Below, in pieces: positions 1 through 19,457 of a stretch of 23,782 nt of DNA. Positions within the stretch are counted from its first letter, which is position 1. The number at the start of each line of letters is the position of its first letter. Below the pieces are notes generated by a model, which had not been told where the DNA came from, searched no databases, and worked only from the letters and a program-made list of their open reading frames with translations. Origin of the DNA: a virus. The position numbers and the translations under genes are program-made. The stretch spans positions 1 to 23,782 of IMG/VR virus record IMGVR_UViG_3300030328_000574; one strand, 5' to 3'.

Positions 1-602
1 GACGACAATGGGAACTTAGTTATCGACTAGGAATGCGACCATGGATTTGTGTCGCTTACTCTGCACCAGTTGCAGCAGCATTCTCAGTCTTCCTTGTATA
101 CCCATTCGGTCAAGGGAGTTTCTCTGATGGTATGCCTCTCGGTATTAGTGGGACTTTTAATTTTATGTTCGTATTCCAAGCAGAACATAATATCCTTATG
201 CATCCTTTCCACATGCTTGGGGTTGCTGGGGTTTTCGGTGGAGCACTATTTGCTGCTATGCACGGAAGTCTCGTTACATCTTCGCTCATTCGTGAAACGA
301 CTGGGCTTACCTCACAGAACTATGGATACAAATTCGGTCAAGAGGAGGAGACGTATAACATTGTTGCGGCTCATGGCTACTTTGGACGACTTATCTTCCA
401 ATATGCCAGCTTTAACAATAGCCGTAGCTTACATTTTTTCCTTGCTACTTGGCCCGTCGTTTGCATATGGCTTACCAGTGTATTAAACCGTGCTAATCTA
501 GGTATGGAAGTAATGCATGAAAGAAACGCACATAACTTCCCATTAGATCTGGCATCTAGTGGGAGTCAACAAGTCGCTCTAACGACACCAACAATAGGAT
601 AG
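1..602 (+). CDS. psbA: Photosystem II D1 protein, 5'-truncated by window edge and with an internal deletion
   Basis: D1 is the photosystem II reaction-centre subunit that carries TyrZ, the QB site and most manganese ligands. The frame is open from base 3, and the first residue corresponds to D1 Arg129; the start lies outside the window. Visible landmarks are Tyr161 ([11 protein letters not shown]), Asp170, Glu189, His215 (HPFHML), the DE loop, His252, Ser264, His272 and the C-terminal ligands His332, Glu333, His337, Asp342 and Ala344 (MHERNAH...PLDLA), followed by a 15-residue tail of the kind removed by CtpA. The odd part is near base 480: IWLTS runs directly into [11 protein letters not shown]. 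The normal protein has 32 more residues there (about 288-319, the end of helix E and the lumenal segment with Asn298). The gap is in frame. It could be a genuine variant, a decayed copy or an assembly artefact. Phage psbA normally replaces host D1 lost to photodamage. Confidence 0.95.
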
Positions 603-606
603 AATT

Positions 607-687
607 ATGCCACAAGGTAAAGGAACATACGGTTCAAAAGTAGGTCGCCCACCTAAAAAGAAAAAGGGTACAAAGAAAACATATTAA
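607..687 (+). CDS. 26-residue basic mini-protein (cyanophage type)
   Basis: The peptide starts MPQGKGTYGSKVGRPPKKKK and ends at TAA. It is very rich in Lys, Gly and Pro, with no membrane segment. I recall very similar short peptides with the TYGSKVGRPPKK core scattered through marine cyanophage genomes, so the reading frame is probably real although no function is known. It lies four bases after psbA, with an AGGA-like sequence upstream of the ATG, and just before the riboswitch-like element. A nucleic-acid-binding role would suit the charge but is only a guess. Confidence 0.6.
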   Translation: MPQGKGTYGSKVGRPPKKKKGTKKTY

Positions 688-691
688 ACGT

Positions 692-750
692 CACGTCCGT
701 TCATCCTGTTTAGGACGCATGAAACCTGATCATGGAACGGGGGTCAGGTA
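692..750 (+). ncRNA. Riboswitch-like H-type pseudoknot (resembles glutamine-II / Downstream-peptide motif)
   Basis: Three helices can be read directly. P1 is CCGTTC (697-702) with GAACGG (735-740). A small hairpin is TCCT (704-707) with AGGA (712-715), loop GTTT. ACCTGA (724-729), inside the P1 loop, pairs with TCAGGT (744-749) downstream of P1, which makes an H-type pseudoknot. The CGTTCATCC...GGACG core resembles, from memory, the Downstream-peptide RNA of Synechococcus, Prochlorococcus and their phages, a glutamine-binding riboswitch class that precedes very short ORFs. A GAGG ribosome site (755-758) follows within six bases and the micro-ORF starts at 767, so control of translation initiation is likely. 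Ligand identity is inferred. Confidence 0.65.
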
Positions 751-766
751 CTATGAGGTAATTACT

Positions 767-874
767 ATGTCTCCAGTAGAACTACAAGCTCGCATCAAGC
801 AGCAATTAGATCTTCAAAGACTTACTAAACTCAAGTATCGTGGCGTATCTTACACCAAGAAAACTTATTGCTAA
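767..874 (+). CDS. 35-residue micro-peptide with YRGVSY motif (DUF4278-like)
   Basis: The ORF starts MSPVELQARIKQQLDL and ends with KLKYRGVSYTKKTYC. The (L)xYRGVxY pattern is typical of small cyanobacterial DUF4278 proteins, whose function is unknown. GAGG at 755-758 gives a well-placed ribosome site, eight bases from the ATG. The ORF directly follows the pseudoknot RNA and fits the class of very short downstream peptides known to be controlled by that riboswitch family. Its stop overlaps the next start (TAATG at 872-876). Function is unknown; a small regulator or inhibitor of a host nitrogen-metabolism protein is possible but is not shown by the sequence. Confidence 0.6.
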   Translation: MSPVELQARIKQQLDLQRLTKLKYRGVSYTKKTYC

Positions 875-1005
875 TGTCACAACAAGCAACTCACTCTCCA
901 GCTTTTGTAACTAAACTTTCACCTGAACCAGAAGTGAAGGAAGAAGTTAAGAAAGAGGATGATGACTTCCCTAGATCATTAGAAGAAGCATTATTAGGTG
1001 AGTAA
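874..1005 (+). CDS. 43-residue acidic mini-protein upstream of capsid gene
   Basis: It begins MSQQATHSPAFVTKLSPEPE and continues with an acidic/lysine-rich stretch and a short leucine-containing end (SLEEALLGE). It overlaps the upstream micro-ORF by one base (TAATG), and its own end overlaps the next GTG start (GGTGAGTAA), so the three look translationally coupled. I do not recognise the family. The acidic, likely helical C-terminal half recalls the charged tails of scaffold-type proteins, but at this length a scaffold role is speculative. Confidence 0.5.
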   Translation: MSQQATHSPAFVTKLSPEPEVKEEVKKEDDDFPRSLEEALLGE

Positions 1006-1120
1006 ATTCAATGAACTCTGGCTGGTAGTCTTTGGACTACTGGCCCTTTTTATTATGGTAGAAACAATGCATGTTAACTACCACAGGTTAGAGACACCTC
1101 AGAGTCGGATCTCTAGCTAA
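998..1120 (+). CDS. 40-residue single-pass membrane mini-protein (GTG start)
   Basis: Starting at GTG 998 the frame reads MSKFNELW, then a clear hydrophobic helix (LVVFGLLALFIMV, about residues 9-21), then a polar tail ending in RISS. The start overlaps the stop of the preceding ORF (GTGAGTAA), a common re-initiation arrangement, and the AGAAGAA/TTAGGTG region lies just upstream. A short N-terminus, one transmembrane span and a basic tail suggest an inner-membrane peptide. The role is unknown; holin-like or photosystem-associated roles cannot be separated. The DNA for the hydrophobic segment also forms a terminator-like hairpin, so the ORF could instead be incidental. Confidence 0.45.
   Translation: MSKFNELWLVVFGLLALFIMVETMHVNYHRLETPQSRISS
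1020..1051 (+). terminator. Possible rho-independent terminator upstream of the capsid gene
   Basis: GGCTGGTAGTC (1020-1030) pairs with GACTACTGGCC (1035-1045) over 11 positions, two of them G-U, around a TTTG loop, and is followed by CTTTTTATT. This has the shape of an intrinsic terminator that would partly insulate psbA and the mini-genes from the capsid gene. It overlaps the hydrophobic codons of the 998-1120 ORF, so one of the two may be fortuitous. Confidence 0.5.
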
Positions 1121-1155
1121 TTGGCTTCTGGCCCTGTACGCAGGATACCCTTTAG

Positions 1156-1167
1156 CCGTCTAGACGG
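1156..1167. repeat. Perfect 12-bp palindrome in the capsid gene leader
   Basis: CCGTCTAGACGG is fully self-complementary. It lies about 75 bases upstream of the capsid ATG, flanked by CCC (1148-1150) and GGG (1169-1171), which could lengthen a hairpin. It might be a protein-binding operator, an RNA processing site or a chance palindrome. No clear promoter could be assigned in the 1121-1240 leader. Confidence 0.35.
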
Positions 1168-1240
1168 TGGGATAGACCACAACAAAACTGATCAAAAAAT
1201 TTCAGCTGAAGAAAGTAAATATCAATCTTATTATAGAACA

Positions 1241-17511: not shown

Positions 17512-19110
17512 ATGGCATTAACAAAAATAGATGACAGAGGTTTGACGACTCCAATCGACCTCTTAGATAACGAAAAGATTAGGTTTGGAACAGGTAATGA
17601 TTTAGAGCTTTACCATGATGGATCTCATTCGTACATTAAAGATGCTGGTACTGGTGATCTTCGGATACTAAGCAGTGAATTAAATATTCAAAATGCAGCA
17701 GGTACAGAAACACAAGCTTATTTTGCTGAAGATGGTGCAGTTGCTTTATACTATGATGGCACTAAAACTTTTGAAACAGTTCAGTACGGTGCGAAGGCAG
17801 GTTCTGAGTTAAGTCTTTATCATCAAAGTGGTAATAGTTATATAAAGAACGATACTGGTAATTTACATATAGGATCAAATGGATTTATTGCTATTTATGG
17901 TGGTAATGATTATGGTGAAACTGCTGCCAAATTTATTAATGATGGAGCCGTAGAACTCTATTACGACAACAGCAAGAAGTTTGAGACATTTTCAGAAGGT
18001 ACATCTACAACAGGTCGTGCAACTATTACCTACGCAGGTAGTTCTAGTGGAAAAACTACTTTAACGCTTGGTGCTAATAACAGCTCAGGCTCAACATCCT
18101 TAACAGATAGTACGAGTAAAGGAGCCAGAGTAGGTGTTTACCATTATACAAACGCCGAACAACCTGCAGCTATATTTTATGCAGTTGGAAGTGACACCAC
18201 AAACCAAGTTAATTATGGTGGTGGAACCTCATGGATGAATGCAGCAACACATCATAAGTTCTTTACTGCTGATGATATTACAACTACGTCTGGTTCAGAA
18301 AGATTAAGAATTGATGGTAATGGAAGAGTTTCTATAAATACACAAACACCTCATTGCTCTAATTACGGAGTACATATAAAAACAGGTGATTCAGGTGTTA
18401 CCTCTGCTTCTACAAATAGAGACGATATCTTTATCGAGGGTGTCGATCATACGGGTATAACAATATCTACAGCAAACAATAAAACGGGTGGCATTGGATT
18501 TGATGATCCTGATGGTAATAGGGGAAGGGTTCAATATTCCCATTCTTCTGACAAGATGCAGATATACACTTCAGGTACAAACTCATTTGAGTTTACGGAT
18601 GATCTAGATATTCTCGACGGAAACCTAAAAGTAGCAAACGGTCATGGTATTGACTTTAGTGCTACAAGTGACGGTACTGGTAACAGTCAAGATGAGATTT
18701 TTACAGATTATGAAAAAGGTCTATGGGTTCCTACAGCGAGTGATGGTTGTGATGGATTAACATACGCTGCTTCTAGATGTGTGTACACGCTAATTGGAAA
18801 AAAGGTAACTCTATGGGCCAAAATTTCTAACCCTACCAATGTAGATGCTGATACTTTTCAAATAGGTGGATTACCTTTTACCCCTGCTGACCACACTATT
18901 GGTACAGGTATGTTTCATTCGTTTGCTATAACAACAACTAGAACTAACGGTACAGCTCAGCTTAATCCTTTTGTTGTAGCGGCAGGATATAACGTTATTA
19001 GACTTTACTTGAGCGGTCTAGCTGGAGATGATGGTTGGACGGCTATACCTGGCAACTTTGTTACAAGTAATGGAGACATGTACATTACTGTTTCATATTG
19101 GATTGCATAG
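17512..19110 (+). CDS. Second tail-fibre / adhesin-type protein
   Basis: This 532-residue protein starts MALTKIDDRGLTTPIDLLDN, an opening I associate with cyanophage fibre-type proteins, and goes on with the same LYHDGSHSYI and DGAVELYYDN units as the upstream fibre. The C-terminal part (YEKGLWVPTA..., then a beta-rich domain ending MYITVSYWIA) looks like a receptor-binding tip. There is no T7-type anchor and no S74 domain. It starts two bases after the first fibre gene, with GGAGG at 17497-17501 as ribosome site. It could be a second fibre that attaches to the first, a tip extension, or a branch that recognises a different receptor. Cysteines in its C-terminal half are unusual for these fibres. 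Confidence 0.8.
   Translation: MALTKIDDRGLTTPIDLLDNEKIRFGTGNDLELYHDGSHSYIKDAGTGDLRILSSELNIQNAAGTETQAYFAEDGAVALYYDGTKTFETVQYGAKAGSELSLYHQSGNSYIKNDTGNLHIGSNGFIAIYGGNDYGETAAKFINDGAVELYYDNSKKFETFSEGTSTTGRATITYAGSSSGKTTLTLGANNSSGSTSLTDSTSKGARVGVYHYTNAEQPAAIFYAVGSDTTNQVNYGGGTSWMNAATHHKFFTADDITTTSGSERLRIDGNGRVSINTQTPHCSNYGVHIKTGDSGVTSASTNRDDIFIEGVDHTGITISTANNKTGGIGFDDPDGNRGRVQYSHSSDKMQIYTSGTNSFEFTDDLDILDGNLKVANGHGIDFSATSDGTGNSQDEIFTDYEKGLWVPTASDGCDGLTYAASRCVYTLIGKKVTLWAKISNPTNVDADTFQIGGLPFTPADHTIGTGMFHSFAITTTRTNGTAQLNPFVVAAGYNVIRLYLSGLAGDDGWTAIPGNFVTSNGDMYITVSYWIA
17941..17990 (+). repeat. Fibre repeat unit DGAVELYYDN, copy 3 (in second fibre gene)
   Basis: It is identical over 26 bases to copy 2 in the upstream gene. 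A paralogous unit 200 bases upstream (17731-17760, DGAVALYYDG) uses quite different codons, so this block looks recently copied or exchanged. Confidence 0.85.
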
Positions 19111-19148
19111 ACCGTTAGCACGTCTCAAAACTACGCCATAAACCTGTC

Positions 19149-19163
19149 ACGTTCGGAGAACGT
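19149..19163 (+). promoter_or_regulatory. Hairpin overlapping the ribosome site of the next gene
   Basis: ACGTTC-GGA-GAACGT is a perfect six-base-pair inverted repeat. Its GGAG (19155-19158) is the only good Shine-Dalgarno candidate for the ATG at 19170. There is no U-run, so this is not an obvious terminator. The 59-base gap (19111-19169) is one of the few between late genes. Confidence 0.4.
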
Positions 19164-19169
19164 CCCTAA

Positions 19170-19457
19170 ATGGCATTAACAGAAACACAAGAGAACGATA
19201 AGATTGAAATCGTTGGAAAATGGAACATACAGGTAAGAAACGCAACAATCATTAAAAAAGATGGTGTGGAACTTACCCGTACCTTTAAGAGAAAGGTATT
19301 AACACCAGGAACACTTGATGCAAGTGATAACCTAGTTGATACAGATATCAGCGGAGAAGATGCAGACGTACAAGCAATAGCTAACGCTGCATGGACTACA
19401 CAAGTCAAAGCAGACTATAAAGCATTCTTAATAGCAAACAAAGATACAACTCCTTAA
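19170..19457 (+). CDS. Conserved cyanophage protein of 95 residues, function unknown
   Basis: The sequence MALTETQENDKIEIVGKWN...QVRNATIIKKDGVELTRTF followed by LTPGTLDASDNLVDTDIS and DVQAIANAAWTTQVKADYKAF resembles a small soluble protein I have seen repeatedly next to fibre genes in marine cyanophages. It has no signal peptide and no membrane helix; a beta-rich N-terminal half is followed by a helix. Its place after the fibres and immediately before the 102-residue gene (one base apart) suggests a structural or fibre-assembly accessory role, which is not proven. Confidence 0.75.
   Translation: MALTETQENDKIEIVGKWNIQVRNATIIKKDGVELTRTFKRKVLTPGTLDASDNLVDTDISGEDADVQAIANAAWTTQVKADYKAFLIANKDTTP

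Follow-up and report, generated by a model that had tools for sequence, protein, structure and literature searches.

The window, by which we mean the whole stretch of DNA analysed, is a 23,782-base virus record from IMG/VR. It begins within psbA, the 5' end of which lies outside, and Pfam and PHROG matches gave the gene order as psbA, the aptamer described below, two small ORFs, a T7-type major capsid protein and two tail-tube proteins. The window was assigned to a T7-like cyanophage because of psbA, the capsid protein and the tail-tube proteins. An earlier reading, made from the sequence only, had proposed a phage origin, psbA as the neighbor, and a GAGG ribosome site followed by a 35-codon ORF for a YRGVSY peptide. 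These proposals agreed with the matches to Photo_RC (E 6e-49), to a Gp10A-like capsid protein (E 4e-75) and to the tail tubes, and with GAGG at 755-758 followed by an ATG at 767 that opens 35 codons encoding YRGVSY. The features of the locus are listed here.

3..602, + strand: 3' part of psbA (photosystem II D1; Photo_RC PF00124 E 6e-49, phrog_182 E 1e-96)
607..687, + strand: very basic 26-codon ORF, MPQGKGTYGSKVGRPPKKKKGTKKTY, in the psbA-aptamer interval (from the sequence)
695..749, + strand: aptamer (RF01704, 58.4 bits; covariation in 76 relatives)
698..702, + strand: 5' strand of the pseudoknot (PK), CGUUC, partner 735-739 (invariant in 76/76; C1-C5 of the solved structure, PMC6698751)
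704..715, + strand: P1 hairpin, 704-707/712-715 (compensatory changes in 4/4 pairs, 99% paired)
716..718, + strand: linking strand C17 G18 C19 (invariant; matches the solved structure)
724..731, + strand: 5' strand of P2, partner 742-749 (compensatory changes in 8/8 pairs, 94% paired)
732..741, + strand: loop AUGGAACGGG, holding the PK 3' strand (735-739), G740 and the A732:G741 junction pair (invariant in 76; solved structure)
742..749, + strand: 3' strand of P2 (covariation in relatives)
755..758, + strand: Shine-Dalgarno-like GAGG, 6 nt past P2 and 8 nt before the ATG (from the sequence)
767..874, + strand: YRGVSY micro-peptide gene, 35 codons, MSPVELQARIKQQLDLQRLTKLKYRGVSYTKKTYC (DUF4278 E 0.0079, below cut-off; family alignment; pN/pS)
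874..1005, + strand: acidic 43-codon ORF (phrog_23119 E 1e-9)

Pfam and PHROG profiles gave no family match for the ORF at 607-687. The start of the 43-codon ORF overlaps the micro-peptide stop by one base (TAATG), through which the two genes are probably translationally coupled. Further downstream, an RNA-like conserved element was observed 5' of the major capsid gene (window 1094-1181), and it recurs at the equivalent position of at least 34 distinct relatives (alignment A4). Its first part is a hairpin that resembles a tRNA T-arm in some phages, its middle has the form UUGGC..GCC-hairpin-GGAUACC with compensatory changes in 7/14 pairs, and its last part is the near-invariant GCCGUCUAGACGGUGGGAUAGACCACA. 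The element had no Rfam match at gathering thresholds.

A glutamine-II aptamer in T7-like cyanophages

Rfam 15, searched with the whole window, returned a single match above the curated cut-off, to RF01704 at 695-749 on the + strand. A score of 58.4 bits against a gathering threshold of 33, with E 5.7e-12, places this match far beyond chance. The glnA family RF01739, a three-way junction, was below cut-off everywhere in the window. The class named by the sequence-only reading, the glutamine 'Downstream-peptide' RNA, was thus the correct one, and 695-749 is confirmed as an ordinary, intact glutamine-II riboswitch aptamer.

The three helices that had been proposed, CCGUUC/GAACGG (697-702/735-740), UCCU/AGGA (704-707/712-715) and ACCUGA/UCAGGU (724-729/744-749), are all present in the sequence, with the exception of one pair that was wrongly drawn. 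The last pair of the pseudoknot helix in the solved structure is C19:G41 (PMC6698751), and its counterpart in the window is C718:G740, not C697:G740. The pair C718:G740 was kept in 76/76 viral relatives, and 697:740 was broken in 15/76. By analogy with the solved structure, G717 would make a base triple and C718 would pair with G740. P2 comprises eight pairs, as U730:G743 and C731:G742 lengthen the helix that had been drawn. The ligand-site bases of the solved structure (C1, G2, G18, C19, C39, G40 and A33:G42; PMC6698751) are all present in the window, as C698, G699, G717, C718, C738, G739, A732 and G741.

Across an alignment of 76 distinct viral aptamers (A1), 97.3% of cells paired. Compensatory changes were found in 4/4 pairs of P1 and 8/8 pairs of P2, so that 12/12 pairs had changed on both sides, and the covariation score was 0.386 versus 0.115 in shuffled alignments (0/500 as high) and at most 0.082 when partners were slid. 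Both a covariance-model match and compensatory changes, the joint absence of which the sequence-only reading had named as counting against it, were therefore found. Of the three stems that it had named for this check, P1 and P2 covary; the pseudoknot is invariant, and covariation is uninformative there. CGUUC/GAACG and the equivalent of the long-range C19:G41 pair were present in 76/76 aptamers with no variation, in an alignment for which the collection pattern behind most rows fixed the PK bases. Two scans of viral collections that left the PK free yielded 30 matches, all of them chance matches and none before a YRG peptide. With no true variant in either scan, we regard the phage pseudoknot as invariant and beyond the reach of covariation, and its support is its identity with the solved structure.

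The aptamer has a fixed position in this phage clade. RF01704 was above cut-off in 15/17 T7-like cyanophage loci (isolate or uncultured) chosen by similarity to the window, and in most of the 15 it is located downstream of psbA and upstream of the capsid gene; the phages that bear it include P-SSP7, P-SSP10, 9515-10a, NATL1A-7, S-RIP2, S-CBP1 and S-TIP28. Whole-record searches found a single copy in each phage genome, and the 14 control genomes all lacked it (0/14). A sample chosen independently of the aptamer consisted of 80 environmental contigs collected through the capsid protein, of which 40 extended for 1,200 nt or more on the 5' side of the capsid match. The element was present in 37/40; 25 of these matches exceeded 50 bits, and 12 were weaker. 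Two contigs from bacterial genome collections, L170 (a Porticoccaceae MAG) and L227, also carry aptamers of the phage type, with a CGCAUGA or CGCAUAA linker, and these probably represent phage DNA included in MAGs or single-cell genomes.

The glutamine-II class is already known, and the literature searched did not describe its location in phages; the examined records of cultured phages (P-SSP7, S-RIP2, S-CBP1 and others) carry no annotation of it. A metabolite sensor of solved structure is thereby placed in cultured model phages. The window copy shares with the glutamine-II RNAs of Prochlorococcus and marine Synechococcus the covariance-model match, the coaxial P1-PK-P2 arrangement, all ligand-contact bases and a location just 5' of a short ORF with a YRG motif. 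It differs from them in its location within a T7-like phage late operon, in a linker after CGCA that is two bases shorter (CGCAUGA versus CGCAGUUCGA in the hosts) and in a peptide with one YRG repeat rather than about three. The glutamine-I/glnA riboswitch (RF01739) has been reported from T4-like cyanophages and the methylophage Melnitz (PMC9964418, PMC9004378). It has the same ligand, a near-identical binding pocket (PMC6698751) and carriage by phages in common with the window element, but it is a three-way junction without a pseudoknot.

The YRG micro-peptide and the direction of control

A YRGxxY peptide of 13-60 aa follows the aptamer in 112 distinct viral leaders, the shortest having 13 residues (MVTYVYRGVVYTK), and almost all of these leaders have 21-25 nt between the GGG of the aptamer and the ATG. 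The Y, R, G and final Y were invariant in 26 aligned peptide forms. The pN/pS ratio was 0.19-0.47 in the larger, better-sampled length classes (0.38 in the class of the window peptide), and YRG was spelled with several different synonymous codons across relatives. These ratios and the synonymous codons identify the YRGxxY peptide as a translated gene under selection, even though it is mostly unannotated in phage records. An in-frame extension of the window ORF to an ATG at 719, within the aptamer, raised the DUF4278 score to 23.4, yet most relatives lack the extension, and it was attributed to chance.

The 35-aa peptide scored 17 bits against DUF4278 (PF14105), below the gathering threshold of 25.3. 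Alignment of the phage peptides with host DUF4278 proteins by hhalign gave a probability of 95.3 and E 2e-8, over only 1-2 YRG repeats (mainly one). The phage peptide resembles a single-repeat version of the host proteins. Both have the L-x-YRG-V-x-Y-x-K repeat of the DUF4278 proteins (the N-terminal part of the GS inactivating factor IF17; PMM1846-type) and the same riboswitch class upstream, and the phage forms are set apart by a length of 13-60 aa, mostly one repeat and scores under the Pfam cut-off. In host Prochlorococcus genomes the same aptamer was found 5' of proteins of ~55-65 residues with three YRG-type repeats. Marine picocyanobacteria carry a type 2 glutamine riboswitch before DUF4278 genes such as PMM1846, and the PMM1846-type proteins have been proposed, without proof, to act like the glutamine synthetase inactivating factor; the GS target is conjectural even in the hosts (PMC6316151).

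The occurrence of this class before related proteins in host Prochlorococcus could also suggest that the phage element is an unused, host-derived relic that travels with psbA. This explanation was already disfavored, and we consider it very improbable, as 76 diverged viral aptamers share the same ligand-site bases despite covariation in P1 and P2, the element is present in 37/40 capsid-anchored contigs and the peptide is under coding selection.

The class binds L-glutamine (PMC6698751). Where PMC6698751 and PMC6316151 summarize the matter, both citing Klahn 2018, the picocyanobacterial switch is described as an ON switch in a GFP fusion and as probably translational, and the expression of host genes behind it falls in nitrogen starvation (PMC2864571). 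Glutamine binding and the ON direction are taken from this class literature, and by analogy the window element would most likely act on translation, as an ON switch. The Shine-Dalgarno sequence, 6 nt past P2, is consistent with translational control. Partition-function folding of the leaders revealed no consistent partner with which the ribosome site could pair alternatively, and without a consistent fold that hides this site the ON direction in the phages is one carried over from the host.

The same two observations could be read the opposite way. A glutamine-stabilized P2/PK stack near the Shine-Dalgarno sequence might block ribosome loading, so that the peptide would be made when glutamine is scarce; the short and nearly constant spacing between the end of P2 and GAGG fits such an OFF switch, as does the failure of leader folding to find the anti-Shine-Dalgarno fold expected of an ON switch. 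We consider this unlikely in view of the ON result that PMC6698751 relates for the GFP fusion and of the fall in expression of host genes behind the switch in nitrogen starvation (PMC2864571).

Under the preferred ON reading, the riboswitch, placed in the late operon of this T7-like cyanophage, would control translation of the YRGVSY micro-peptide and, via the TAATG overlap, probably that of the 43-codon gene as well. The peptide would be a one-repeat relative of the host DUF4278 proteins, which are candidate regulators of nitrogen assimilation, and when nitrogen is plentiful it would most likely adjust host glutamine synthetase or nitrogen metabolism. We infer the translational mechanism and the peptide function. 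As one explanation, the assignment of the phage riboswitch to its class, the control of YRGVSY translation and the role of the peptide appear highly probable to us. Phage translation would in this way be linked to host glutamine status, and the reading of host nitrogen status by a cyanophage becomes directly testable.

The micro-peptide might instead be only a leader, whose glutamine-gated translation hands ribosomes to the next gene as the real target. The one-base overlap in the window would suit this, and a next ORF of at least 30 codons begins no more than 60 nt from the YRG peptide in 58/106 loci, a -1 overlap being the commonest arrangement. However, relatives differ in the gene after the YRG peptide, which can be an acidic ORF, a gene for a signal-peptide protein or gp222, or can be missing. 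The YRGxxY motif, in contrast, does not vary among the aligned peptides, and the peptide is under purifying selection; we think it quite improbable that the peptide serves as a leader alone.

Relatives with a gene inside the aptamer

The 12 weaker capsid-anchored matches (25-42 bits) cover the 3' half of the aptamer only. Decay of the riboswitch was ruled out as their explanation, as the missing 5' half (CGUUCA) was located 155-210 nt further upstream, with a whole ORF filling the P1 loop between the halves. Two targeted scans identified 140 elements in which an ORF occupies the expected place between the two halves and a YRG peptide follows; they come from S-SBP1, a cultured phage, and from many contigs of ocean origin. 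The inner ORF has 53-62 codons and belongs mostly to the phrog_628 family (E 1e-5 to 2e-11). This nested-gene form is a new variant among the relatives of the window.

S-SBP1 (L368, MT424636 about 18978-19180), cultured phage: gene-in-loop glutamine-II element with a P1 loop of 161 nt
L300, L304, L311, L313, L316, L328, L333, L337, L346 and L370-L543: other gene-in-loop glutamine-II loci
L404, L406, L427, L429, L430, L441 and L445: seven glutamine-I-like elements

The halves of P1 covary over ~160-190 nt. Among 78 distinct P1-half pairs, compared at six positions, 86.1% of cells paired, versus 67.1% (maximum 72.9) after the 3' halves had been redistributed among the sequences by shuffling and 32-51% when they were slid. 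Cells changed on both sides numbered 109, versus 48.9 (maximum 65) in 1,000 shuffles, and the mean pairing energy of the halves was -6.14 kcal/mol for native and -2.79 for shuffled pairs. Because the native halves pair beyond shuffled and slid halves, we conclude that P1 re-forms across the inner gene.

The inner ORF starts at P1 position 4-7 in 100/140 elements, its start codon usually being within or next to the P1 5' strand, and its stop lies within the aptamer core CGCAU(G/A)A in 101/140. Its pN/pS of 0.10-0.29 shows that it is a real gene. The main classes had no synonymous differences in the last two inner codons (GAC GCA, which are aptamer bases), versus 0.34-0.43 inside the ORF. Four phrog_628 homologues that stand alone in T4-like cyanophages were not flanked by aptamer bases.

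The gene-in-loop anatomy has good support. Read from this anatomy, a folded aptamer would hide the start of the enclosed ORF, and a ribosome translating that ORF to its end would open up the aptamer. A single glutamine sensor would thereby select which of two small proteins is made, and ligand binding and internal-gene translation would have to exclude each other. We think it likely that the aptamer of the window represents the simple version of a family of phage riboswitches whose P1 loop can house an entire gene, and in such a family switching would be of this either/or kind. The literature searched yielded no description of a riboswitch whose aptamer encloses a gene, and the architecture appears to be an undescribed one.

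The seven glutamine-I-like elements have the core GAAGGAACG, nested ORFs that are unrelated, and a longer YRG protein with two repeats. In L427, L429 and L445, a second aptamer-like stretch lies directly upstream, with scores of 23.9-32.9 bits that are below the curated cut-offs. Contig L427 looks T4-like, with tRNAs and PhotoRC-II, both of which T4-like cyanophages carry.
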